This document shows, piece after piece, positions 38,917-53,126 of a DNA stretch of 64,000 nt; the first letter of the stretch is position 1, and each line of letters opens with the position of its first letter. The stretch lies in the NCBI GenBank assembly GCA_905234075.1, contig CAJOGI010000004.1, forward strand, positions 124,001-188,000, read 5' to 3'. This DNA comes from an uncultured Synergistales bacterium (lineage in GTDB: Bacteria; Synergistota; Synergistia; Synergistales; Aminobacteriaceae). Both the position numbers and the translations under genes were made by a program. The notes beneath the pieces were generated by a model. It was given only the letters and a program-made list of their open reading frames with translations. It searched no databases and was not told where the DNA came from.

Positions 38917-40800
38917 TTACGAACGTGAATTAATTTTGCTAATAACTTCTTTTTTCAACGAAACAGCGTCAATTTTATTATTCGGGAGCGTCGGGAGTTT
39001 ATCATATAAGAAAAATCTGCTTGGAATTTTGAACTTAGCAAGCCTTGTCATAAGAAAATCTCGCATAGCATTTTCATCGAAAACATAGCCGTTTTTCATT
39101 ACGACAGCAGCAGCTACGATTTCGCCGTAAACCTCGTCAGGCACGCCCATAACTTTTACTTCAGCAATGCTCTCATGTGCTGAGATTGCAGAAGCTACCT
39201 CATCAGGCATAATATTTTCTCCGCCCCGTATTATTAATTCTTTAGCACGGCCTGCGAAATGAAGATAGCCGTCTTTGTCCAAAAATCCTAAATCTCCCGT
39301 ATGTAAAAATCCCTCATTATCAAAAGGCTGTTTTTCAACCGGCAATTTGTAATAGCCGCACATCATATTAACGCCCTTCAAAATAACTTCGCCGGTAACA
39401 CCTTCAGGACATTTTTTACCTGTCTTTATATCCTCTATCATGATTTCAGCACCTTCAACTGTTTTTCCTACGGTGTTTAGTATATGTTCCATGCTGTCGT
39501 TATAATTCGTGGCAGTTGCCGGTGTCATTTCGCTTAGACCGTAACGCCTCATAAAGTGGTTATTAGGAAATTTTTCCATGAGCATAGCAAGCTGTGAAGA
39601 CGATACAGGCGCACCGCTCAAATACGAAGCACGTAGAGATGAAACAAGTTCAGAAGAAAAACCTTGAGCATTAACAAGCCTCAATAATACAGTCGGAACA
39701 GAATGAAGAATAGTACAGCGTTCATTATCTATGACGCTCAAAAGTTCATCAGGCTTGACATTTTGAGGCAGAATTATTGAAGCTCCGCTTATTGCGCTTG
39801 CCAAAAGAGCCGCAGTAAGTCCGAAAATATGGAAGAAAGGCAGAATAGCACACATTTTATCGCTGTCGTTCATTTGAAGATTATCAACGCAGTGATTTGC
39901 AGAATTAAGCAAATTGTAAGCCGATAGCAAAACTACTTTAGGAGTTCCTGTAGAGCCTGACGTAAAAATCATAAGACAGACATCGTCCGGCATAACATGA
40001 CCTTCATAATCGTATTTTTGATTTCTGTTCATGAAGTCTGCGCTGTCTCTTATATTGAGAGTCGTTTTTATACATGATTTATCGGGGTCTGTAATTTTTG
40101 CGGTAAAATCTTCTTTTTTGCTGTCTTCTGAATTCATATTGCCGTAGCAGAAGTGAGTTATATCTCCGATTTTTGAACAATTTGTAATTTCATTAACTGT
40201 AAGCTGAGGATTAAGCATTACAGCTATAGCACCTAACTTTTGGACAGCGTAGAAAGTTAATATCCAATTTAGAGAATTTAGACCGCAGATGGCAACGTGA
40301 GTTTTATTTCTCACTCCTAAGGCGTAAAGTTCAGAAGCCACAGCTGAAGAACCTTTGTCAATATCCTGCCAAGTATACGAGACACCGTGAGATTTTAATG
40401 CAATTTTGCTGCCGCTTTCATTAACTTTGTGCTTCAGAAAATCCCGCAGAGACATATTCAAAATATCATCGTTTTGATTTTCATTTTCAACAAAAGGCGT
40501 GTAATTAAAGAACCCTAAAAAGCCTGTTGCCTCTAAAATCTCGATAACTTCTGGCCTTACGTTCTCTAAAAGCAAACCGTCTTTTCCAAACTTTTTAACA
40601 GCAAGCAAAAATTCGCGCAATCCGTTTGATGAAACATAAGATAATTTTCTCATATCCCAGACGAGAGGAAGATTAATTTTTTCCGGCTCGATGTCTTTCA
40701 AAACTTCATGCAGCATCGGAGCAGTTGTTGCGTCTATTTTTCCGCTAAGTATCAGCTTATTCGCGCTTGGCCGTTCAATATTTAATTTAGAATTCTTCAT
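38917..40800 (-). CDS. STAS domain fused to an acyl-CoA ligase (AMP-binding)
   Basis: 627 aa from ATG 40800 (AGGAG 9 bp upstream). Residues about 1-105 form a STAS domain: NKLILSGKIDATTAPMLHEVL and WDMRKLSYVSSNGLREFL, where the Ser before NGLR aligns with the phospho-acceptor Ser of SpoIIAA-type proteins. The rest is a complete AMP-forming ligase: IFTSGSTGTPKVV, RYGLSEMTPATATNY, HTGDLGFLDKDGYLHFAGRAKELIIRGGENI and the C-terminal catalytic Lys in LPNNKIDAVSLKK. It could make the acyl-CoA or acyl-AMP for the starter condensation domain of the NRPS 1.3 kb upstream on the same strand. The STAS part suggests control by the phosphatase/ATPase pair of that operon; this is inference. Confidence 0.88.
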   Translation of the reverse strand: MKNSKLNIERPSANKLILSGKIDATTAPMLHEVLKDIEPEKINLPLVWDMRKLSYVSSNGLREFLLAVKKFGKDGLLLENVRPEVIEILEATGFLGFFNYTPFVENENQNDDILNMSLRDFLKHKVNESGSKIALKSHGVSYTWQDIDKGSSAVASELYALGVRNKTHVAICGLNSLNWILTFYAVQKLGAIAVMLNPQLTVNEITNCSKIGDITHFCYGNMNSEDSKKEDFTAKITDPDKSCIKTTLNIRDSADFMNRNQKYDYEGHVMPDDVCLMIFTSGSTGTPKVVLLSAYNLLNSANHCVDNLQMNDSDKMCAILPFFHIFGLTAALLASAISGASIILPQNVKPDELLSVIDNERCTILHSVPTVLLRLVNAQGFSSELVSSLRASYLSGAPVSSSQLAMLMEKFPNNHFMRRYGLSEMTPATATNYNDSMEHILNTVGKTVEGAEIMIEDIKTGKKCPEGVTGEVILKGVNMMCGYYKLPVEKQPFDNEGFLHTGDLGFLDKDGYLHFAGRAKELIIRGGENIMPDEVASAISAHESIAEVKVMGVPDEVYGEIVAAAVVMKNGYVFDENAMRDFLMTRLAKFKIPSRFFLYDKLPTLPNNKIDAVSLKKEVISKINSRS

Positions 40801-40846
40801 TAAAAAAACTCCTATATTTTTATATGTAAAAATATTAACATGGCCT

Positions 40847-41155
40847 TTAATAATATCGCAAGAGCCTTGAGAAGTCAAAATGATTTTTCAAATAACGGAA
40901 AATTTTATTTTCTTCTGCAAAAGTTAAAATTCTAGTTTGTCGTTGCCTTAACGGAATTTCTACGATAGCAGGAATTATATAATTTTTTAGCTGTCCTGCG
41001 TATTTAGCGATGGTCGATTTCTTTCTAATCGGCTTTAATTCTTCGAGCCACTGAACGACGATGTCTTCTAAAGTCGAATTTTTTAAGCATTTATTCTGAG
41101 TTTCGTCAGATTTTTTTGTATCGGATTTAAAAACGGAAGAATTTTGAAAGTCTCA
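40847..41155 (-). pseudogene. Tyrosine recombinase (integrase) remnant
   Basis: One minus-strand frame reads TLEDIVVQWLEELKPIRKKSTIAKYAGQLKNYIIP (about residues 30-65), the core-binding SAM-like domain of phage/ICE integrases. It jumps to LTFAEENKIFRYLKNH, the start of a catalytic domain, then stops. The region between and the catalytic Arg/His/Tyr are gone. It overlaps the 5' extension of the ligase frame. It marks a former mobile element next to the NRPS locus. Confidence 0.55.
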
Positions 41156-41442: not shown

Positions 41443-41863
41443 ATGATAATTGACCATATTGGTATAGCTGTTAAAAATATTTCTGAAGCTCTTATTTTTT
41501 GGGAACAAACTTTTAGGAATTAAGTGCGCTGGCATTGAAGAACTCGAAGAGCAAAAAGTTAAAACAGCTTTTTTGCCTTTGGGAAATTTAACTGACGATA
41601 GTATGCCATAGGAAATTGAACTTTTGGAAGCAACGAATGATAACAGCACCATAGCAAAATTTATAGAGAAAAATAAAGATAGAGGCGGTATTCATCATAT
41701 TGCTGTACGTGTTGATGATATTGAAGCAGCTATTGAGGATTTGAAGTCAAAAGGCGTCAGGCTTATTGATGAAAAACCGCGCAGAGGTATCAAAAATTCA
41801 TTGATTGCCTTTGTTCACCCGTCAGCAACAGGCGGCATTTTATTGGAACTTTGTCAGCATTAA
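41443..41863 (+). pseudogene. Methylmalonyl-CoA epimerase, disrupted
   Basis: ATG 41443 starts MIIDHIGIAVKNISEALIFW, the VOC-fold epimerase opening. A frameshift near 41515 and an in-frame TAG near 41609 (TDDSMP[14 protein letters not shown]) break it; the rest ([32 protein letters not shown]) is intact. The enzyme would interconvert (R)- and (S)-methylmalonyl-CoA. Two lesions indicate real decay. Confidence 0.82.
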
Positions 41864-42109: not shown

Positions 42110-45100
42110 TTAAAAGTCGAAGAACCCCAGCCCCTTGATGGCACCGATGAACTGTGCAACGTAATCCCATGACGTAACCGGCCAGCGGTAGCCCATGCGG
42201 TAAAGTGTCTGCATGGTGTATGTGTTATGACGCGCAATATGCGTATCACGCTTGTTTCCGCTTTGGTAGGCCAACATGCTTGTCAGGAGCTTTGCTTTTA
42301 CAGGATCGTCTCCTGCTTTCGCCATAGCGGCATCGAAATCTTCCCGTTCTACTGGTTTCACGGGAAGGCCGAGTTTTTCCATTTCGCCGAACACGTTGCC
42401 CGACAGAATAGCGTTATGGTTGTACGGGTGGAAGATAACGCACTCTTTTGGTGTCTGACACAGAAGCAAAATAGCCTTTGCAACTTCATCGATTGGCGAG
42501 AACTCCATAGGTACGTCCATTTGCTCATAAGGACATACGCCAAGTAGTGCGTAAATCTTCAGGCGGCCCATTGCGGAGTTCATTCCGTTATTAATCTGAA
42601 ATTCTCCGTCACTGTACCGCGCCGCTAGGTTACCCACGCGCATAATCTTAGCGATAAGCCCCTTCTCTTTCACGGCCTCCAATACAAGTCGCTCGGCAAG
42701 GAACTTGGAGCGCACGTACTTGTTCTCCAAAAGCTGGCCGAAGTACAGGTCGCGCTCACCGATCATTCGCCCCTCTTCTAAGGACTTGCCCTTGCTCATG
42801 CCCATACTGACGGTACTCATGGTCGAGACTTGGATCAAGCGGACACTGTTAGCGAGGCAGTAATCAATCAGGTTTTTCACGCCTCCTACGTTCGCGTCCT
42901 CTATCTCCGTCCCGGTGGAGAAGTGCTTGACCACCGCCGCGCAGTTGATGACAGTCGAGACGGGCAGTTTCGGGATAGGCTTCGTGATGTCGCCTTCCAC
43001 GACGAAAAGCCGCTTTCCTAAAAGTTCATCGTAGGTTTTCTCTAAATAATAGAAGAGCTGACCCTTCAGCCGCCATTCCGCGTCGTAAGCACCCTTGCCG
43101 CGAAGGAGGCAATAAACGTTCCCGTCGTAATTTTCCAGAAGCTCATGAAGTATATGAATGCCGAGATAGCCCGTCGCGCCGGTGAGCAGGACATCGCCAA
43201 GCGGCTGCCGTGCGCCTGCCTTAAAACTCTCCAGAGTGTTTGCGTCAAGGACGGACTGTAATTTACTGTAATCGTAATCCCGGACATCGTCTTTTGCAGG
43301 GTGTTCCGCTTTCGCTGCTTTGTCTGTGAACAACTCAGCTAATGCTCTTGGTGTAGGTCTGGAGAACACGTTCTGGAACGTTACGCGGTAGCCGGCCTTC
43401 TCCGCCTCAATCATCACTCGCGTTACCAGCAGCGATGTTCCGCCTAACGAGAAGAAGTCCTCAGTAGCTCCGACATTATCAAGTTGAAGAATATCGCCGA
43501 AGATTTTACAGAATGCCCGCTCCGCATCATTGGCCGCCGCCTCTGAAACGTTGCGTTCGATGACGGCCTCAGGCAGTGCGCGAAGGTCGGTCTTGCCGTT
43601 GGGGGTCATGGGCATCTTGTCAAGCTGTAGCCATGCTGTTGGTACCATGTACTTCGTCAAAGTACGTCCGATTTCCTCACGAATGGCCGCTATATCCATA
43701 GGTTTGTCCGCTGTGAAGTAGGCGCAGAGGTGATCTTGTCCCTTGATTGAGTTAATCTTAACCGCAACGCTCTTCACGCCCTTGACGTGTGCAATGGCAG
43801 ATTCAACCTCGCCAAGCTCGATACGAAGGCCTCGCAGTTTTACCTGATTGTCTTTGCGCCCAAGAATTTCAACGTTGCCGCCGTCTCTCCACCTCGCGTA
43901 GTCTCCCGACTTATAGACGCGCGTTCCTCGATACTCGACAAATCGCTCTGCTGTCATTTCCGGCAGGTTGTGATAGCCAATGGCAACGCCGCATCCGCCG
44001 ATGTACAGTTCTCCAACGACACCGCAGGGCAGTTCATTTCCGTCGCTGTCAACTATAAATTCTTTCACTCCAGGCAGAGGACGACCAACGGTAACGACGT
44101 TATCCCGTGTCAGCTCGCGGATGTTGGAAGACACCGTTATCTCCGTAGGCCCGTAGGTATTGAAAATCCGGGCTTCGGGATATTCTGTTTGCAGCCTTTG
44201 AAGCAGATGTTGCGGATACTTCTCGCCTGCACAGATGATTACCCGGCATTGCGACAGTGCTTCCCGGAAGTCTTGGGACTCAAGCAGCGTAAGCAGACGG
44301 GACGGCGTTGCCTGGAACAAATCCGTATTCGTCTCCTTCATCTTACGGCCCAGCGCGCTTGCGTCATTGCACTGCTCCTCGTCAGCCACCGTAACTGTAA
44401 GCCCGTTAAACAGCGGAATACCAAATTCTTTGACGGCCATATCAAATGAGAGTGTTGTAATCGCCGTTATGACGTGTCCTTCGTTCACCATAGCGTGAGG
44501 TAAAATGGTCTCAGGCGTGTCTGTTACGTAATTGACCAGTCCCCTGTGCGCTATAGTTACGCCCTTAGGCTTGCCCGTAGAGCCCGAAGTGTAAATCATG
44601 TAGGCCGGGTCTTCTTGGGATATCTGAACATCGGGACGTGATGTGTTCTGCTCCTTTAGAAGTTCCTCAATATCGACTGTTCGGTCTCCCTCCAGCCTGT
44701 CCTTCGTAGTGATGATTACGGGCGCATCGGAGTCCTCTACGATATGCCGAACTCTTTCCGCAGGATAGTTCGGGTCGCAGGGAATATAAACTCCTCCGGC
44801 TTTCAGTACGCCAAACATCGCAAAGAAGAACCTCGCCCTTCTCGGCAGAAGCAACACAACGCGATCCCCTTTTCTAACACCCCTCGCTATAAGAGCGTTA
44901 GCTATCATGTTCGCGTTCTTATCCAGTTCCCCATAAGTGTAACTTCCGTCCGCAGCAATCAAAGCTATAGCCTCCGGTCTTTTGGCGGCCACACACTCCA
45001 TTCCGGAATGGAAGAGACAGTCGGCAGGGATATTCGGCTTGTAGTCCCTTTCGCGGAACTTTGCCAGAACCGCCCGCCGCTCATCGTCAAGAAGCTCAAC

Positions 45101-48100
45101 GCTGCGAATAGGCTTTTCCGGCGCAGCCATTATTGACTCGGCGGCTATCACGATGGATCGGGCTAGACTCTGCATAAGATTTTCACTGTACAGAGCATCG
45201 TTGTAGTACAAGGCTACGCAGGGCGTTCCGTCCCGTTCCTCGATGTGGACGGAGAGCTTGAACTTTGATACTTCCAGCCCAAGTGACTCGCGCTTCAGTC
45301 CTTCATCTTTCTCCACGACGCCTATTTGATACTCGTACATAATGTTTGGTACGAAGCCGTAGTCCGACGCGATTCGGGCGAACGGGTATTTCTCATGCCG
45401 TATTGCGCCGTCAAAGACCTCCGCGCTGTGCTTCACAAATTCTGCCGCGCTCTCGTTCTTTATTTCAAGCCCTAGCGGCAAGGTGTTGACAAACATTCCG
45501 TACGTTTCCGCCGTGCGAACGTCGCTGCGTCCGCTGCTGATGGTAGAGAGATAGACGCGGTTGTCGCTCACGTAGCGTGAGACGGCATAGAACGTTGAGG
45601 CCAAGAACAGCGAGGCTGGAGTAACGTTCCGTGTTTTGCAGAAGTCTGAGGCAGCTTTGAAGTCTAACGGAGATGAGACACGCCCCATTGTTCCTTCTTC
45701 CTCTTTCCCGCTTACGTCCGATGTTATTTCGCTGGCACTCTCAAAGTCCGAAAGCATATCCGCAAAATATTTCTTATTCTCCTCGAACTCTGGGGATTGT
45801 TCAAACTTCTTCTCGTCCGAAACATAATCAAAATATGTGTATTCCTCCGGCTGGGGATATGTGCCGTCAATAGCGGCTGCCAATTCCTTAATAAAGAAGT
45901 TCAGCGAAGCACCGTCGAACACAAGGTGGTGGAAGTCCGTTAAAAGACAAACCCTCTCCGGCGTTCTTACGATGACGAAACGGCACAACGGACCTTTACT
46001 CAGATCGAAAGGCTTTACGAAGCCCTTTTTATATGCTTCCAGTTCGGTCTCGGACATCTCCAGAAGCTCCGCGTTTATTTCGCCTGAGCCGCAAACCTGC
46101 GTGATGTTGCCATTCCGCGTCTCGAAATGAGCCGTCAGCACAGGGTGAGCTTTCACTACAGCCTTCACAGCCCTGACTAATTTTTGAGTGTCCATGTCTG
46201 TCCCGAACGTAAACAGCGACGGCACGTTGTACAGCACTTCCGCCGGGCGTTTCATGCAATCGTAATAGACACCCATCTGCGGATAAGACAGGGGAGCCTC
46301 CGTGATTTTTACGTCCCTTGCTGCGTGCTCTTCCCGTTTACCTGACATGAAGCTGCGCCATATATCGTTCTCAAGGTCCTCCAGCGTCGCTCCGTCAAGA
46401 AGCCTACGAGACGGTATCTCTACGCCCAGACGCTTATAAATCTGGGTTGAGAGCTGTATAGAACGTATAGAGTCAAGCCCCATGTAGATCAGCGGCGTTG
46501 TGAGGGAAACACTTTCAGTACCGATGATCTTACCCGTCATGGCGCAAAGCTCCTGCTCCATCACGTTCAACGGGCGGCCGCTGTCATCAGCTTCTTTCTC
46601 GGCCTTGAACTCCGGCTTTGGCAGGGCGCGTTTGTTTACCTTGCTATTCTGATTCAACGGGATTTTGTCGATCTGCATCGTAACGGCCGGAACCATGTAG
46701 GGCGGCTTCTGACTCTTTATAAAATCATTGAGGGCTTTAATGTCGATCTCCTTATCACTCACGACATAGCCGGCCAGATATTTCCCCTCGCCGGACTCGT
46801 TGTCGAATGCGGCCACCGTTGCGTCTGTAACGCCGGGGAACTGACGAATGACGGCCTCGACTTCAGAAAGCTCTATTCTAAAGCCGCGTATCTTTACCTG
46901 ACCGTCGCGCCGCCCGAAGAACTCAATGTTCCCGTCCGCTCTGTAGCGCACGATGTCGCCGGTTTTATAAACTTTCCCGGAGTCGAACGGGTTTTTGATG
47001 AAAACATCGGCGGTCTTTTCTGGAAGATTGAGGTATCCGTCGCCGACCTGCGGCCCGGAGAGCCATAGTTCGCCCAACGCCCCCACGGGGACGCGATGCC
47101 CGTCGCCGTCAACGACATAGGCTTTCATGTTATCCAAGGGCTTGCCGATGGGGATATTGTCCTCATTCTTTGTTACGGGATAACTTGTGGCGTAAATTGT
47201 GCACTCTGTCGGGCCGTAGCCGTTGTGCAGCATATAGGCCGTGGGCGGGTCGAGGGGAACTAACTTCTCGCCGCCAACGGTGAGGTGCTTCAGACTATGG
47301 TTATCGATATTCACGGCGAACTGGCGTCCAACCTGCGTGGTCATGAACTGATGAGTAACGCGGTTCTTCTCCAGATATTCATTGATGGCGTTCAGGTCAA
47401 GCCGTATCTCCTCAGGGATAACGCATAGAGCTGCGCCAAGCGTCAAGGGCGAGTACATATCCATCATACAGGCATCGAAGCCATAGGAGGCGTACTGACC
47501 TACGCAGTCTTCCGGCTGAAGTTTGTAATAACGGTGATACCAGTTGACGAAGCAAACGAGATTGCCGTGCGTCAGGCGGACTCCCTTCGGCGTGCCCGTA
47601 GAGCCGGAAGTGTAGAGCAGGATAAACAGGTCTTCGGGTTTGACTGTCGGGAGTTCCGCGCCACACGCCGGAAGCGCGGGTATCTCGCTCACCATCAGCA
47701 CGTCTCCGCTGTAATCCGTAATGAGCGGCCTTAGCTCTTCGGTCGTGATTAGCAGCTTCGCGCCGCTATCCTTTACCATGAAGTTCAATCTCTCCGGCGG
47801 ATAAGTCAGATCCAGAGGCTGGTAGGCGCACCCGGCCTTCAACACTCCGATGGAAGCTATAGGCATATACTCGCCTCTTGGAATGAGAATAGAGACGACA
47901 TCGCCGCGCCCAAGCCCCTTGCTTGCAATAGTCCCGGCAATTCTATCTGTTATCTCGTCCAGTTCTTTATAGGTTAGCTTCTTTCCGTTGAAGATGACGG
48001 CGGTTCGGTCAGCGTTTTCACTCGCGGCCTTGCGGAACAGAGACACGATTGTCTGTGTGGCGTCATAGGGGTTATCCGTGTTGTTGAAGCCGTCCAAAAC

Positions 48101-49360
48101 GCCTAACTGTTTTTCATTAGTCGGCTCAATATCGCGGACGTATTCCCGGCTCATCATCTGCTGCAGGACGTTCTCATAAGTCCGGGCAAACGTATCGATG
48201 AAATCATGAGAATATTTTCCGGCGTTGTAACTGATGTGAAGTTTCATTCCGTTTGTTTCGCACATAAGCTCAACCTCAAGAGGATAGCCCGTAGCATGAC
48301 TGTCAAGAATTTCATATTGACATGGTAGTCCGCAGAATGTAGAGGTAGTTCTGATCATGCCGTGATAGGCGAACATGGGTTTGTCGTTCATGGGGCAGAT
48401 TCGGTTGAGGTCGGCGAAAGAGAAGAGGTCATTCTCTCGGCTTTCACTAATCTGAACAGACAGAGCTGTCAGCAAATCGGTTATTTTTGTATCCGAATCC
48501 CAGCGGCAGAAAACAGGCATAGTCTTAACGAACATTCCGATTATTTTTGCCGTTCTCTCGTCCTTGCGTCCGTGATATATAGTGGAGAACAGAGCCTCCC
48601 GCTGATGAGTATAAACTCCCAGTGTGAAGCCGAATGCCGCCGACGTTAGGGCCGAAGCGGAGATTTTATGCTCGCGGCAGAAATTCCGCATCTCGTCATA
48701 GTTAAGTGGGAAATCGTGAACGAAGGTCTTAAAGGAGTCCGGCTTGCCGTAAACATCAGGCAGAGGCAGGCTCTCCGTGTCTAAGCCGGAGAAGTTCTCA
48801 TCGTACCATTTTTTTGCCGTTTCGTATTCGGAGCCGTTGCGCTTTTCCGACTCATCCCACGCCGCGTCCAAAGCGTTATAGCTTTCCTGTGTTATCTCAA
48901 GCCCGTTGTACGCCGCCGCGATGTCCGCAAACAATACGTTATTAGCCGTGCCGTCAAAGGCGATATGATGCGTCGTACGCAAAAAATACTTCGCCTTCTC
49001 CGTCTGAACAAGATCAAAACGGAAAAGTCGTCCGCCCATAAGCTCCAGAGGTGTCGATATCAAGCGAGGCATTTCGCGCTTCCATTCCTCTTCAGTCATC
49101 TCCGTGACGGTCTGAGAGTACGGCTCAAAGCTGTCGGGTATGTACTGCATTGGCTCCCCGTCCCGTTCAACTATGCGGACGTTCATGTAGGGGTGCGCCG
49201 CGACAGCCTTCTCGAATGCCGCTGCCAGCCGCTTCATGTCGATGTCGTTGTCCAGAGTATAAAGGAAATGACTATTATACGTACCCTTCCCTCTTCTCAC
49301 ACAGTCCAGGTAAATTCCAAGCTGCGTTTGGGACAGCGAAACAAATTTCTCTTTTTCCAT
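42110..49360 (-). CDS. Dimodular NRPS, C-A-T-C-A-T-reductase
   Basis: 2416 aa from ATG 49360 (AGAGGT 8 bp before). Domains by motif: C1 with HHIAFDG (~131), A1 with YTSGSTGTPKGV (~587), T1 with GLDSI (~960), C2 with HHLVFDG (~1145), A2 with YTSGSTGKPKGV (~1593), T2 with LGGTSLL (~1975), terminal reductase with TGATGYLG (~2063) and YVRSK (~2216). All catalytic motifs look intact. A leading C domain with no A/T before it normally N-acylates the first amino acid; a terminal reductase releases the chain as an aldehyde. So an N-acyl dipeptide aldehyde, or a pyrazinone if deacylated, is expected. The C domains are divergent but HHxxxDG is kept. No phosphopantetheinyl transferase is in the window. 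Base composition is richer in G+C than the flanks. Confidence 0.95.
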   Translation of the reverse strand: MEKEKFVSLSQTQLGIYLDCVRRGKGTYNSHFLYTLDNDIDMKRLAAAFEKAVAAHPYMNVRIVERDGEPMQYIPDSFEPYSQTVTEMTEEEWKREMPRLISTPLELMGGRLFRFDLVQTEKAKYFLRTTHHIAFDGTANNVLFADIAAAYNGLEITQESYNALDAAWDESEKRNGSEYETAKKWYDENFSGLDTESLPLPDVYGKPDSFKTFVHDFPLNYDEMRNFCREHKISASALTSAAFGFTLGVYTHQREALFSTIYHGRKDERTAKIIGMFVKTMPVFCRWDSDTKITDLLTALSVQISESRENDLFSFADLNRICPMNDKPMFAYHGMIRTTSTFCGLPCQYEILDSHATGYPLEVELMCETNGMKLHISYNAGKYSHDFIDTFARTYENVLQQMMSREYVRDIEPTNEKQLGVLDGFNNTDNPYDATQTIVSLFRKAASENADRTAVIFNGKKLTYKELDEITDRIAGTIASKGLGRGDVVSILIPRGEYMPIASIGVLKAGCAYQPLDLTYPPERLNFMVKDSGAKLLITTEELRPLITDYSGDVLMVSEIPALPACGAELPTVKPEDLFILLYTSGSTGTPKGVRLTHGNLVCFVNWYHRYYKLQPEDCVGQYASYGFDACMMDMYSPLTLGAALCVIPEEIRLDLNAINEYLEKNRVTHQFMTTQVGRQFAVNIDNHSLKHLTVGGEKLVPLDPPTAYMLHNGYGPTECTIYATSYPVTKNEDNIPIGKPLDNMKAYVVDGDGHRVPVGALGELWLSGPQVGDGYLNLPEKTADVFIKNPFDSGKVYKTGDIVRYRADGNIEFFGRRDGQVKIRGFRIELSEVEAVIRQFPGVTDATVAAFDNESGEGKYLAGYVVSDKEIDIKALNDFIKSQKPPYMVPAVTMQIDKIPLNQNSKVNKRALPKPEFKAEKEADDSGRPLNVMEQELCAMTGKIIGTESVSLTTPLIYMGLDSIRSIQLSTQIYKRLGVEIPSRRLLDGATLEDLENDIWRSFMSGKREEHAARDVKITEAPLSYPQMGVYYDCMKRPAEVLYNVPSLFTFGTDMDTQKLVRAVKAVVKAHPVLTAHFETRNGNITQVCGSGEINAELLEMSETELEAYKKGFVKPFDLSKGPLCRFVIVRTPERVCLLTDFHHLVFDGASLNFFIKELAAAIDGTYPQPEEYTYFDYVSDEKKFEQSPEFEENKKYFADMLSDFESASEITSDVSGKEEEGTMGRVSSPLDFKAASDFCKTRNVTPASLFLASTFYAVSRYVSDNRVYLSTISSGRSDVRTAETYGMFVNTLPLGLEIKNESAAEFVKHSAEVFDGAIRHEKYPFARIASDYGFVPNIMYEYQIGVVEKDEGLKRESLGLEVSKFKLSVHIEERDGTPCVALYYNDALYSENLMQSLARSIVIAAESIMAAPEKPIRSVELLDDERRAVLAKFRERDYKPNIPADCLFHSGMECVAAKRPEAIALIAADGSYTYGELDKNANMIANALIARGVRKGDRVVLLLPRRARFFFAMFGVLKAGGVYIPCDPNYPAERVRHIVEDSDAPVIITTKDRLEGDRTVDIEELLKEQNTSRPDVQISQEDPAYMIYTSGSTGKPKGVTIAHRGLVNYVTDTPETILPHAMVNEGHVITAITTLSFDMAVKEFGIPLFNGLTVTVADEEQCNDASALGRKMKETNTDLFQATPSRLLTLLESQDFREALSQCRVIICAGEKYPQHLLQRLQTEYPEARIFNTYGPTEITVSSNIRELTRDNVVTVGRPLPGVKEFIVDSDGNELPCGVVGELYIGGCGVAIGYHNLPEMTAERFVEYRGTRVYKSGDYARWRDGGNVEILGRKDNQVKLRGLRIELGEVESAIAHVKGVKSVAVKINSIKGQDHLCAYFTADKPMDIAAIREEIGRTLTKYMVPTAWLQLDKMPMTPNGKTDLRALPEAVIERNVSEAAANDAERAFCKIFGDILQLDNVGATEDFFSLGGTSLLVTRVMIEAEKAGYRVTFQNVFSRPTPRALAELFTDKAAKAEHPAKDDVRDYDYSKLQSVLDANTLESFKAGARQPLGDVLLTGATGYLGIHILHELLENYDGNVYCLLRGKGAYDAEWRLKGQLFYYLEKTYDELLGKRLFVVEGDITKPIPKLPVSTVINCAAVVKHFSTGTEIEDANVGGVKNLIDYCLANSVRLIQVSTMSTVSMGMSKGKSLEEGRMIGERDLYFGQLLENKYVRSKFLAERLVLEAVKEKGLIAKIMRVGNLAARYSDGEFQINNGMNSAMGRLKIYALLGVCPYEQMDVPMEFSPIDEVAKAILLLCQTPKECVIFHPYNHNAILSGNVFGEMEKLGLPVKPVEREDFDAAMAKAGDDPVKAKLLTSMLAYQSGNKRDTHIARHNTYTMQTLYRMGYRWPVTSWDYVAQFIGAIKGLGFFDF

Positions 49361-49376
49361 TGTATTACCTCTTTTT

Positions 49377-51173
49377 TTATAATTCAATAATTGTCTGATT
49401 CAGCGACAGGACGCGGCTGTAGTGAATGTCCTTCGCCATTGCTTTCAATAACATAATTCCGTCAGTGCGATAATCGGCCGTTTCGTTAGGGGTGTACTCA
49501 ATCGGGTTGAAGGGCTGACCGTTGTCGCGCAGAGCAAGAATGACGCGCCCGTTGCGGGAAGCCTCGCCCCCTGCACTTTCAATTACGCTGATCCTAACGT
49601 CAATATCCGCAGCGCGTTTGTTTTTAGCATAGCTTGCCAGGTTCGCCGTCATTTCCTCCAGAGCAATTCCAGCCATTGCCGCTTTCTCCGTCTCAAGGCC
49701 GTTACTTTTTAGAACGCCCTCCGCCTCTTGGGACAGCCTCACCGCGTCCTCGTTCGTAGCCTTGAGCGACACGTCGTAAAGCAGTTCCTTGCCGCTCTTC
49801 TCGATTAAATAAAAGTCCGTAAGTTTTCCGCCGGAGTTCTTGCAGGCAACGCGGACATAGACGAGCAGACAAAGGAAGCCGATAAACTCCGCAAGTATGA
49901 ACGCCACCCACACGCCCGTCAGCCCCATTAAACGCGATAAAACCCACGCGGCAGGTACGACAGCGAAAAAGCCCTCGACAAACGAGAGGATATTTGCGGC
50001 CGTCCGCTGCTGTACCGTCGTGTAGTAGTACAGCATAAGGAACGTAACAGCGACACCAAGAAGACTAATAGAGAACAAGCGGAGTGCCTTTGCTCCCTCA
50101 GCCGTAAGTTCCGGCGGCAGATTGAAGAGAGACAGCACCGACTGAGGGGATAACAGAACGAACAAAACGAACAGCCCTACCAACGAGAGCGTGAAGCGCA
50201 TGACGTGCCGCGTCAGCATACGGATACCCTGATAATCCTTCTCGCCGTATAACACGCCCACGATTGGTATCATCGATCGATGCCCGCCGGAGATAAACAT
50301 CGAGACAAAGCTGAGACAGGATACGCACACAGCGTAGATCGTCATGGCTCCGGCTCCTCCTGTAGCACTTAGAATGGCGTATATGCACCATATTTTGACA
50401 GAGACAAGGCCAACCCCGGCCGCTGCCGGAACTCCTGTCCGTATCAGTCTGAAAGTCAATGACAGGAACGCCTTTATCCCATTGCCCAAAATATTGACAA
50501 GGCGGAATGTTCGCTCGGACGAGACGAAATAGCGTGCAAGCAAATAGCCGGCACCAACGACATCGCTCACAACCGTAGCCAGAGCCGCGCCCTCCAGTCC
50601 CATCTTCATAGGGCCAATCAGGAAAATGTCAAGCCCTATATTCACAACTTGTCCAAGCAGCACGGCGTGGCTCACAACCCCTGCCATACCGTCGGAACGG
50701 ATCAGGACGCTTAGTCCGCCCAAGACGATCATGAAGGGAAATCGCCAAATCAGGATATGGAGGTATGCCCAGCCGCCCTCCACAAGTGCGTCAGAAGAAG
50801 CAAGGAAGCGCGACAGTTCGCGTGTAAAGGGGAGACACAAGAGCGTCATTAAGGCTCCTACTCCGAAGCACAGAACCGTAACGGCGGTGAAAATGCGGTT
50901 TGCCTCATCGTGCTGTCGTGCTCCGGCAGCAATGGCGGCAAGCCCCCCCGAACCGACGGAAATAAGCATCATTATTGCCGCCACAAGCTGATTCAGCGGC
51001 ATACAGACCCCCACGCTGGCCATCGCTCTCGCGTCAATAAAATTTCCCACGATTATGCTGTCGATGATGACACCAAGCTGCCCGGCGATCGTGGAAAGAA
51101 CGGTGGGCAGGAAAAATTCACGAAACTTTTTGTTGACAAGCTTTCCAGATTTTACATAGCCTGTCTCAAACAT
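49377..51173 (-). CDS. MATE-family exporter fused to RsbW-like ATPase domain
   Basis: 598 aa. Residues about 1-455 form a MATE transporter with 12 helices (FFLPTVLSTIAGQLGVIIDSIIVGNFI start; GMGLEGAALATVVSD-type repeat at MKMGLEGAALATVVSDVVG). Residues about 465-598 form a GHKL/HATPase_c domain of anti-sigma kinase type: GIALEEMTANLASYAKN (N box, Glu and Asn), LALRDNGQPFNPIEY (DxGxPF, G1 box) and NQTIIEL at the end. RsbW/SpoIIAB-type domains phosphorylate STAS proteins. Fused to an exporter, it could couple transport to the STAS switch. It lies 16 bp before the NRPS start and 14 bp after the phosphatase gene. Confidence 0.9.
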   Translation of the reverse strand: MFETGYVKSGKLVNKKFREFFLPTVLSTIAGQLGVIIDSIIVGNFIDARAMASVGVCMPLNQLVAAIMMLISVGSGGLAAIAAGARQHDEANRIFTAVTVLCFGVGALMTLLCLPFTRELSRFLASSDALVEGGWAYLHILIWRFPFMIVLGGLSVLIRSDGMAGVVSHAVLLGQVVNIGLDIFLIGPMKMGLEGAALATVVSDVVGAGYLLARYFVSSERTFRLVNILGNGIKAFLSLTFRLIRTGVPAAAGVGLVSVKIWCIYAILSATGGAGAMTIYAVCVSCLSFVSMFISGGHRSMIPIVGVLYGEKDYQGIRMLTRHVMRFTLSLVGLFVLFVLLSPQSVLSLFNLPPELTAEGAKALRLFSISLLGVAVTFLMLYYYTTVQQRTAANILSFVEGFFAVVPAAWVLSRLMGLTGVWVAFILAEFIGFLCLLVYVRVACKNSGGKLTDFYLIEKSGKELLYDVSLKATNEDAVRLSQEAEGVLKSNGLETEKAAMAGIALEEMTANLASYAKNKRAADIDVRISVIESAGGEASRNGRVILALRDNGQPFNPIEYTPNETADYRTDGIMLLKAMAKDIHYSRVLSLNQTIIEL

Positions 51174-51186
51174 GAATATCGCCTCT

Positions 51187-52827
51187 CTATAAATATCGTA
51201 TATACATCATTGTCAGGTCATCAGACTGAGGAGCCGTCCGCACGAAAGCCGCGACCTGATTTTTCACATAATCTATAAGCTCCTGTGCGCTCAAATTTTT
51301 CGCGTTCACAACGTGAGCATTCAGCGCGTCCAGCAGTCTAACTTCCCCGAAGAACTCGTGCTCGCAGTTCTCCGCCTCCGTAACTCCGTCAGTGTAGAAT
51401 AAAATCCCGTCGCCCTGTAAAAGCGAAAGAGAATCTTCCTTAAATTTAGCTTTATCGTCGATGCCTAAAAAGCCGTTTTGCGCTATTGGCAGGTATTCAA
51501 AAACACCGCCTCTGGAAATCAGCGGCGGGTTGTGCCCAGCGTTGACGTAGGTGAATTTTCCTGTTCTTACGTTCAGGACTCCGGCGAAAACCGTCACAAA
51601 CATTAGGCTGTCGTTGCCTCGACAGAGTTGGAAGTTAGCATAGCTAACTGCTTCGGCCAGTGCTCCCGGCTCGTCCGGTGCAATATAGATAAAGTTTGCC
51701 AGCAGGATTTGAGCCTTGCTCATGGTAAGTGCCGCCGGAACGCCTTTGCCGGATACGTCCGCGATTATGAAAGCTACACGGTTTTCATCGATGGTGTAGA
51801 AGTTGTAGAAGTCTCCGCCGACTTCTTTAGCTGCGTCCATTATTGCAGCTATGTCAATCTCTGATCGAATGGCAAAATTTGTGGGAAGCATGGAGAGCTG
51901 AATATTCCGCGCCACGTTAAGTTCTGACTGAACCTGCTCCTGCTTTCTTGTAACCTGCGTTAGATTAATAATGTAATCGACAGTCTGCTCTTCCATCGTA
52001 TCGATAGCACGTGCAAGCTGACCGATTTCGTTTGACATTCTGATGGACTCGCCAAGTTTTGATTCTGAAAGGCTGTTCTTCACTGCAAAGCGCGATATTT
52101 CCTTCGTAACGGCCTTGATAGGGTTTAAGAGCCATCGACGAAGTCCCCACAGCACAAGATAAAGGATAACCGCCAGCAACAGCATTGCCCACCCCAAAAC
52201 TTTATACGCATGTCTGTATATGACGGTGCGCAGCTTTTCCATTTTTCTCTGGACGCAGATAAGCCCTGCCACTCGATCCTCTTTTGTCTTGACGGGGATA
52301 ACAACAGTAATATGATCTTCCTCCCACTGCTGAGGCTGCACAACCATAGCATATTTTGCGCCTTGATATATCTCGGCATAAGCCTTTCGTTGAGCATCGC
52401 CGGATTTAGCCACAGTACCGCCGGGATACAGCACCATCTCAGGATAATCTTCAAGTAGGGAAGGGTGTACCACTGTCAGACCAAAACGAATACGGCCGTA
52501 GTCCTCCCCTTCCGTCTGAATGAGGTAGATCATCAAAACTCCCTGAGAGTCCCGGTTTGCCAGACGCTGCCACTCACTCTGAATTTGACGTCGCTCCTCC
52601 GGGTGATTTCCCCCGTCCGCCGTTAGGTAGTCAGCTATATGATCGGGATTGAGGTATGTTCGCGCAGTCCTTGCAGTATGATAGGCCGCCTCAACGTACT
52701 GATCAATAACGGCCTTAGTTATCTCCCGGCTGCCGATATAAACGATGACATAACACAAAAAGACGAGCACGAGTGCCACACTGGTAAGAACCTGGACACT
52801 CAGGCTCGTTTTGAGGGCTTTAATCAT
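51187..52827 (-). CDS. Membrane SpoIIE/RsbU-type Ser phosphatase with sensor domain
   Basis: 546 aa. Helix at about 10-32, periplasmic sensor region to about 205, second helix at about 210-232 (VLGWAMLLLAVILYLVLWGLRRW), HAMP-like region to 290 and a coiled coil, then a PP2C-type phosphatase: DAAKEVGGDFYNFY (metal Asp), FIIADVSGKGVPAALTMS, YVNAGHNPPLIS, LFYTDGVTEAEN and APQSDDLTMMYIRYL. It should dephosphorylate STAS-Ser-P on sensing an outside signal. ATG overlaps the STAS stop (ATGA). Confidence 0.93.
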   Translation of the reverse strand: MIKALKTSLSVQVLTSVALVLVFLCYVIVYIGSREITKAVIDQYVEAAYHTARTARTYLNPDHIADYLTADGGNHPEERRQIQSEWQRLANRDSQGVLMIYLIQTEGEDYGRIRFGLTVVHPSLLEDYPEMVLYPGGTVAKSGDAQRKAYAEIYQGAKYAMVVQPQQWEEDHITVVIPVKTKEDRVAGLICVQRKMEKLRTVIYRHAYKVLGWAMLLLAVILYLVLWGLRRWLLNPIKAVTKEISRFAVKNSLSESKLGESIRMSNEIGQLARAIDTMEEQTVDYIINLTQVTRKQEQVQSELNVARNIQLSMLPTNFAIRSEIDIAAIMDAAKEVGGDFYNFYTIDENRVAFIIADVSGKGVPAALTMSKAQILLANFIYIAPDEPGALAEAVSYANFQLCRGNDSLMFVTVFAGVLNVRTGKFTYVNAGHNPPLISRGGVFEYLPIAQNGFLGIDDKAKFKEDSLSLLQGDGILFYTDGVTEAENCEHEFFGEVRLLDALNAHVVNAKNLSAQELIDYVKNQVAAFVRTAPQSDDLTMMYIRYL

Positions 52828-53126
52828 CCTTCAATCGGAATATGATCGCTGAAGTGGGATATAGCAAAGACGTTCTTGATAACCTCGTTAGCGTGAATGA
52901 TTTTGATAGGGCCGTCGCCAAAGCTGCGTTTCGCTTTCAGTAGGGAACGGAGCCCCGCAGAAGAAATGTACTCCAAGCCGGCAAAGTCAAGCGTTACTTC
53001 CTTGACTCCAAGTACAGATGCTGCAAACTCCTTGTCGAACTCTTGGGACGTTATCGTGTCCAAGCGTCCGTTAAGTGTCAGTATGAGGGACGTTCCCTCG
53101 ACACTCTTAGTGATTTCTAAAGACAT
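52824..53126 (-). CDS. STAS-domain anti-sigma-factor antagonist-type protein
   Basis: 100 aa, a single SpoIIAA/RsbV-like domain. VEGTSLILTLNGRLDTITSQEF and VTLDFAGLEYISSAGLRSLL; the Ser before AGLR is the expected phospho-acceptor. First gene of the NRPS operon, overlapping the phosphatase by 4 bp. It should be the substrate of both the phosphatase and the MATE-fused ATPase domain. Leader: AAGGAGCGTTTTTTATG. Confidence 0.94.
   Translation of the reverse strand: MSLEITKSVEGTSLILTLNGRLDTITSQEFDKEFAASVLGVKEVTLDFAGLEYISSAGLRSLLKAKRSFGDGPIKIIHANEVIKNVFAISHFSDHIPIEG

Follow-up and report, generated by a model that had tools for sequence, protein, structure and literature searches.

Results

The STAS–ligase gene and its acceptor loop

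The window, a stretch of 64,000 nucleotides from an uncultured Synergistales bacterium, encodes an acyl ligase with an N-terminal STAS domain and, on the same strand, a non-ribosomal peptide synthetase (NRPS) with its accompanying genes (Table 1). Transcription upstream of the ligase follows the order free STAS, SpoIIE-type phosphatase, MATE-HATPase and NRPS. The Rfam search of the window returned two tRNAs and nothing else.

Table 1 Features of the STAS–ligase and NRPS region, with positions in the window
Feature	Position	Strand	Remarks
STAS–acyl ligase gene	38917..40800	(-)	627 aa from ATG at 40800; intact
AMP-binding C-terminal domain (AMP-binding_C)	38980..39201	(-)	Pfam PF13193, E 2.7e-12, 47.8 bits, curated cut-off 24.5
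AMP-binding domain	39349..40434	(-)	Pfam PF00501, E 1.4e-74, 251.6 bits, curated cut-off 29.9
STAS domain	40495..40752	(-)	Pfam PF01740, E 7.6e-10, 39 bits, cut-off 22.6
Codon of Ser58, predicted phospho-acceptor	40627..40629	(-)	second Ser of YVSSNGLR; alignment and SpoIIAA/RsbV analogy
Promoter-like site upstream of ligase	40850..40878	(-)	TTGACT-17-TATTAT
NRPS, C-A-T-C-A-T-reductase	42110..49387	(-)	two condensation, two adenylation and two carrier domains, reductase
MATE exporter with C-terminal HATPase_c_2	49377..51173	(-)	HATPase_c_2 at 49413-49763, E 3.2e-8
Membrane sensor with SpoIIE-type phosphatase domain	51187..52827	(-)	phosphatase domain at 51193-51789; weak HAMP match
Free STAS protein of the NRPS module	52824..53126	(-)	

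The ligase gene lies in an open frame extending from 38917 to 40878 (-), and a Shine-Dalgarno sequence (AGGAG, 40813-40809) precedes its start codon by 8 nt. The protein carries, from its N-terminus, the STAS, AMP-binding and AMP-binding_C domains and is, judged by the latter two Pfam domains scoring above their cut-offs, an AMP-forming acyl ligase of the ANL superfamily. Among the 25 best NCBIfam matches listed for the ligase, no subfamily exceeded its own cut-off. An AlphaFold2 model computed from a five-sequence alignment had a mean pLDDT of 39 and was set aside.

The acceptor loop reads YVSSNGLR in the fused STAS domain and YISSAGLR in the free STAS protein. Both serines were present in all 21 aligned STAS domains and likewise in the separately aligned domain of genome G531, so that the pair is found in each of the six fusions described below. 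Across these six fusions, six of the eight columns of the loop Y-[IV]-S-S-x-G-L-R were invariant, compared with 19 of 96 columns domain-wide (P 6e-4). By the acceptor serine in the loop before GL, the predicted type of the window STAS domain is that of RsbV and SpoIIAA. From the motif alignment, we take the second serine to be the residue that is phosphorylated in SpoIIAA and RsbV. For these two proteins, Ser58 and Ser56 are named as phosphorylated residues (PMC11418112). The original prediction of a complete AMP-forming ligase with an N-terminal STAS domain and a retained acceptor serine was thus borne out by the Pfam domains, the YVSSNGLR loop and the six homologous fusions.

The window ligase departs from two otherwise shared ligase motifs, with PKVV for PKGV and NNKID for NGKID, and its STAS domain sits on a long branch of the STAS tree. 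The long branch and the two motif changes may reflect relaxed constraint on this copy.

Relation of the ligase to the NRPS

The NRPS, for which the nearest NCBIfam model was aureusimine synthetase with a score below the model cut-off, is separated from the ligase gene by 1.3 kb of AT-rich DNA (32% GC). A glyoxalase/methylmalonyl-CoA epimerase-like gene, broken into two frames, lies in this gap on the opposite strand (41443-41863, (+)). The GC content is 35-40% in the ligase and 48-55% in the NRPS module. The promoter-like site upstream of the ligase is a weak indication: the region contains nine sites of this kind where shuffled sequences contain 5.7 (sd 2.3), a count near chance level. Because of the AT-rich gap, the broken (+) gene, the promoter-like site and the contrast in GC content, the ligase probably forms its own transcription unit outside the NRPS operon, and ligase and NRPS-module neighbours probably have different histories. 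The ligase is therefore next to the NRPS, as originally described, in terms of distance, but probably not as a member of its operon.

Relatives of the NRPS, recognized by at least 50% identity in the first C domain, were present in G000, G007, G062, G041, G026 and, as a fragment, G013. Only G000 among these genomes also encodes the STAS–ligase; conversely, the NRPS is known from one of the six STAS–ligase genomes, in a search that covered the five of the phylum. As regards a role in starter loading, judged by co-occurrence and co-transcription with the NRPS, the two genes were thus found together in G000 alone and probably as separate units. In G007 (L115 1-5854), the order STAS, SpoIIE, MATE-HATPase and NRPS is the same as at positions 47000-53126 of the window, and the first C domain is 89% identical to that of the window NRPS. 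No STAS–ligase was found in this genome, which is 75% complete.

Distribution and ancestry of the fusion

The full fusion was detected in 3 of 43 genomes of the same genus (G000, G019, G005) and 5 of 81 genomes of the family; the same five, from two genera, made up the count for the phylum (5/185). A set of relatives reaching beyond the phylum yielded these five again with a full-length match (5 of 389, among the matches listed), and in two other phyla the fusion was encoded by 1 of 167 genomes (G531) and 0 of 232; the genus, family, phylum and wider sets overlap and their counts are not additive. Altogether, six genomes from two phyla carry it: the five of the family, which include G064 and G065, and G531. 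In G531, STAS and ligase are encoded as far as the contig end. The G065 gene (L047 8130-11271) is interrupted by a transposase gene that appears IS3-like in our own reading of its sequence.

The ligase parts of the fusions formed one clade, with support of 100/99 without G531 and 95/100 with it. The STAS parts likewise fell into one group (92/91), a result subject to a long-branch caveat. The closest relative of the window copy was that of G064, from another genus, with 63.9% identity. A chance joining of frames was ruled out by the Shine-Dalgarno sequence, the homologues and their grouping in one clade.

Viral contigs gave 26 pattern matches, no relative being among them, and none of 89 matching plasmid records covered 80% of the STAS-plus-ligase query. 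A single-sequence scan of genome contigs returned just an unrelated Bacteroidota ligase of 22% identity; its patterns were drawn from variable stretches, which makes it uninformative on distribution. Among the open-licence PMC papers listed in a literature search, none reported a STAS–acyl ligase or a ligase–HATPase fusion.

Genes around the fusions

In G019, the fusion gene directly follows a MATE-HATPase gene, and three proteins nearby carry HxxxD motifs, which we read as acyltransferase-like; two such HxxxD proteins, of G019 and G033, had no match in Pfam or NCBIfam. The G005 fusion adjoins two free STAS genes that correspond by sequence to the housekeeping pair in the genome of the window, and the G065 fusion lies 8.6 kb from a SpoIIE–RsbW fusion gene. 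No kinase or phosphatase gene was found near the G005 fusion or in the stretches examined around those of G064 and G531. A kinase- or phosphatase-type gene lay within 10 kb of three of the five fusions of the phylum (P 9e-4, against a baseline of 3-7% of each genome within 10 kb of such a gene and with a post hoc threshold), and of three of six when G531 was added. A fusion occurring widely without such neighbours had been named as evidence against the original prediction; it proved to be rare, yet half of its known copies have no kinase nearby. RsbW-type and SpoIIE-type genes were each present in five of five carriers tested, including G005 and G064, where they lie elsewhere in the genome; as both are common, little can be concluded from finding them in a genome that carries the fusion.

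Proteins that combine a SpoIIE phosphatase with an RsbW-like ATPase were seen in two phyla (L188 9330-11909 and L189 3853-6348). The genome of the window also encodes STAS domains fused to an aminoglycoside-phosphotransferase/choline-kinase-like domain (TIGR02172-like; L038 13107-14303 and L040 7401-8591). Many of the STAS matches across the phylum, among those listed, come from frames of 390-443 aa; these were taken collectively, rather than one by one, to be the same choline-kinase-like fusion. An EamA transporter of this genome (L038 8819-10627), located inside the housekeeping STAS/SpoIIE/RsbW module, has a weakly RsbW-like C-terminal domain (65% in hhalign; 21.9 bits when hmmsearch was run on the transporter sequence by itself).

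The neighbourhoods of 42 MATE-HATPase genes were inspected, namely 40 loci hand-chosen from the listed matches that reached the HATPase part, or nearly so, together with the G019 and G033 loci; many were cut by contig ends and the window itself was not counted. Eight contained a STAS, SpoIIE or RsbW gene, three an NRPS, one a STAS–ligase and one a class II ligase (see below). MATE-HATPases are not special to the NRPS. The clustering of STAS–ligases with MATE-HATPase fusions, suggested with the original prediction as a check, was rejected at one neighbourhood in 42.

Ligases with an RsbW-like C-terminal domain

A second group of ligases in the same genus (class II, the STAS–ligases being class I) shares about 30% identity with the window ligase, has no STAS domain and bears a C-terminal extension of about 147 aa. 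Seven of the phylum's 185 genomes contain a class II ligase gene, and all seven belong to this genus. Five look intact; that of G040 is broken into several frames and the open frame of G003 has no N-terminal part. Pfam HATPase_c_2 matched their tails weakly and below its cut-off (E 0.008 in G033, 0.014 in G005, 0.041 in G041), with no match in G012. In hhalign, the tails aligned with RsbW and MATE-HATPase domains over 97 columns at 93.9% and E 1.5e-7; among PDB entries, RsbW matched best (E 0.012). The C-terminal domain is, by profile comparison, homologous to RsbW. Read against the RsbW alignment, the ATP-binding boxes are not intact: the N-box Asn is replaced by Glu in all seven and the G2 glycines are absent, while DSG of G1 is kept. 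Because of the replaced Asn and the absent glycines, the tail probably binds rather than phosphorylates.

The idea that classes I and II represent one fusion family was rejected, as each forms its own clade; their sister grouping received weak support (90/89) and was left open in the smaller tree with G531. The class II ligase of G033 has genes for a MATE-HATPase, a SpoIIE protein and a free STAS in its neighbourhood. Fusions of a glycosyltransferase 2 with a GH3-type acyl-adenylate domain were observed beside class II ligases (L034 12052-14664 and L032 3704-6268).

Candidate kinase

The STAS domain of the ligase shares 36% identity with the housekeeping STAS of its own genome and 18% with that of the NRPS module. 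The housekeeping RsbW (E 1.2e-21) has N, G1 and G2 boxes; in the MATE-HATPase of the NRPS module, N and G1 are present and G2 is incomplete. Judged by this resemblance, the candidate for the cognate kinase would come from the housekeeping STAS/RsbW set (genome contig C4, about 60-65 kb, with the free RsbW at 64.7 kb), and the MATE-HATPase of the NRPS module is the less likely choice.

Discussion

On balance, we favour the explanation that the window ligase is directly controlled by a partner switch through its STAS domain. The N-terminal STAS domain would act as a phosphorylatable docking module, to which an RsbW-like ATPase would bind in the unphosphorylated state and which it would phosphorylate at Ser58, and a SpoIIE-type phosphatase would reverse this modification. 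Docked and released ligase would then differ in activity or location, for example if the docked ligase is held at a MATE exporter by the exporter's ATPase tail. Phosphorylation, binding and the effect on ligase activity, like all function discussed here, are what we infer from sequence. This reading is preferred because the fusion is kept in two phyla with a conserved loop, the five carriers tested possess RsbW- and SpoIIE-type genes, and the reciprocal fusion of ligase and ATPase exists; the MATE-HATPase neighbour in G019, the two free STAS genes in G005 and the precedent of enzyme outputs support it further. The lack of kinase or phosphatase genes near the G005, G064 and G531 fusions argues against it, as do the long STAS branch and the motif changes of the window copy.

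It is unlikely, by comparison, that the STAS domain is a docking or structural module without switching, the loop being kept merely in connection with the fold. STAS domains of SulP transporters are reported to bind acyl carrier protein, and the domain of the ligase might do the same. STAS domains do occur in non-switching proteins (PMC8256260), and three of the six fusions have no kinase nearby; however, the acceptor serine pair is retained throughout the fusions and the other aligned STAS domains, and a non-systematic look at the neighbouring genes showed none for a carrier protein.

The original prediction went further than partner-switch control in general, proposing that fused and free STAS compete for the MATE-HATPase of the NRPS module, which could bind or phosphorylate the ligase and thereby switch the supply of acyl starter to the NRPS. 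This circuit we consider distinctly improbable. The MATE-HATPase gene is located 8.6 kb from the ligase on the same strand, a MATE-HATPase gene precedes the fusion in G019, and the NRPS starts with a condensation domain, which often indicates an N-acylated product (PMC2812497, for a similar NRPS). The ligase, however, differs in GC content and probably in transcription unit, and it was rated far below general partner-switch control because of the closer STAS resemblance to the housekeeping set, the incomplete G2 box of the MATE-HATPase and the co-occurrence with the NRPS in G000 only. The general form of the prediction thus holds up, given the loop in all fusions, the kinase or phosphatase genes near three of five and the RsbW-like class II tails; the specific NRPS circuit does not, in view of the separate unit, the single NRPS among six carriers, the single STAS–ligase among 42 neighbourhoods and the STAS identities. 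There is very little likelihood that the ligase is a sensor of the switch instead of its output, with the binding of acid or acyl-AMP altering how its STAS domain competes with free STAS for an RsbW-like kinase: such competition fits the G005 gene arrangement, and RsbR-type proteins have sensory domains joined to STAS, but nothing here separates this reading from the output reading, and class II ligases with their ATPase half fit output or docking equally.

Partner-switch control of a biosynthetic ligase had been put forward as a new output for this module, but enzyme output as such is not new: HsbA/HsbD, BgrV/BgrR and SiaC/SiaD are published partner switches with enzyme outputs (PMC8457831). 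In the HsbA/HsbD and BgrV/BgrR diguanylate cyclase systems and in SiaABCD, as proposed for the ligase, the direct target of a phosphorylatable STAS or STAS-like protein is an enzyme instead of a sigma factor (PMC8457831). Those systems have a free-standing STAS protein and a cyclase, whereas in the window the STAS domain is part of an acyl ligase. The protein all4160 of Anabaena also has an N-terminal STAS domain on a biosynthetic enzyme, a glycosyltransferase; the enzyme class differs, and the part of the source dealing with all4160 describes no partner switch (PMC8256260). RsbV/RsbW/RsbU and SpoIIAA/SpoIIAB/SpoIIE are made up of the same kinds of parts as the present case, STAS, HATPase and PPM phosphatase, and have the same acceptor loop, but their output is a sigma factor, while here STAS is placed on an enzyme and ATPase domains on transporters or ligases. 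The cluster mru0066-0071 of Methanobrevibacter ruminantium, published in 2010, resembles the window in that it combines an NRPS with a MatE exporter, with serine phosphatases and with an anti-sigma factor antagonist; the section of the paper concerned with it mentions no fused ligase and reads the regulation as control of NRPS expression (PMC2812497). With enzyme outputs and a STAS–glycosyltransferase protein already published, the STAS–acyl ligase and the ligase–HATPase fusion appear to be the new part, as far as the open-licence PMC papers listed go.

More tentatively, and short of what we would call likely, acyl-activating enzymes may represent a direct output class of partner switching, in which evolution joined either half of the switch to the ligase, STAS at the N-terminus in class I or a probably binding-only RsbW-like domain at the C-terminus in class II. 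Together with the MATE-HATPase, EamA-HATPase-like and STAS-choline-kinase-like fusions, STAS phosphorylation might then assemble or release enzyme–exporter complexes without a sigma factor. Partner switching usually means control of sigma factors, with a few cyclase outputs; if the proposal is true, the ligase families would extend this control directly to biosynthesis, and it would offer a reading for the numerous MATE-HATPase proteins that stand alone in this lineage.
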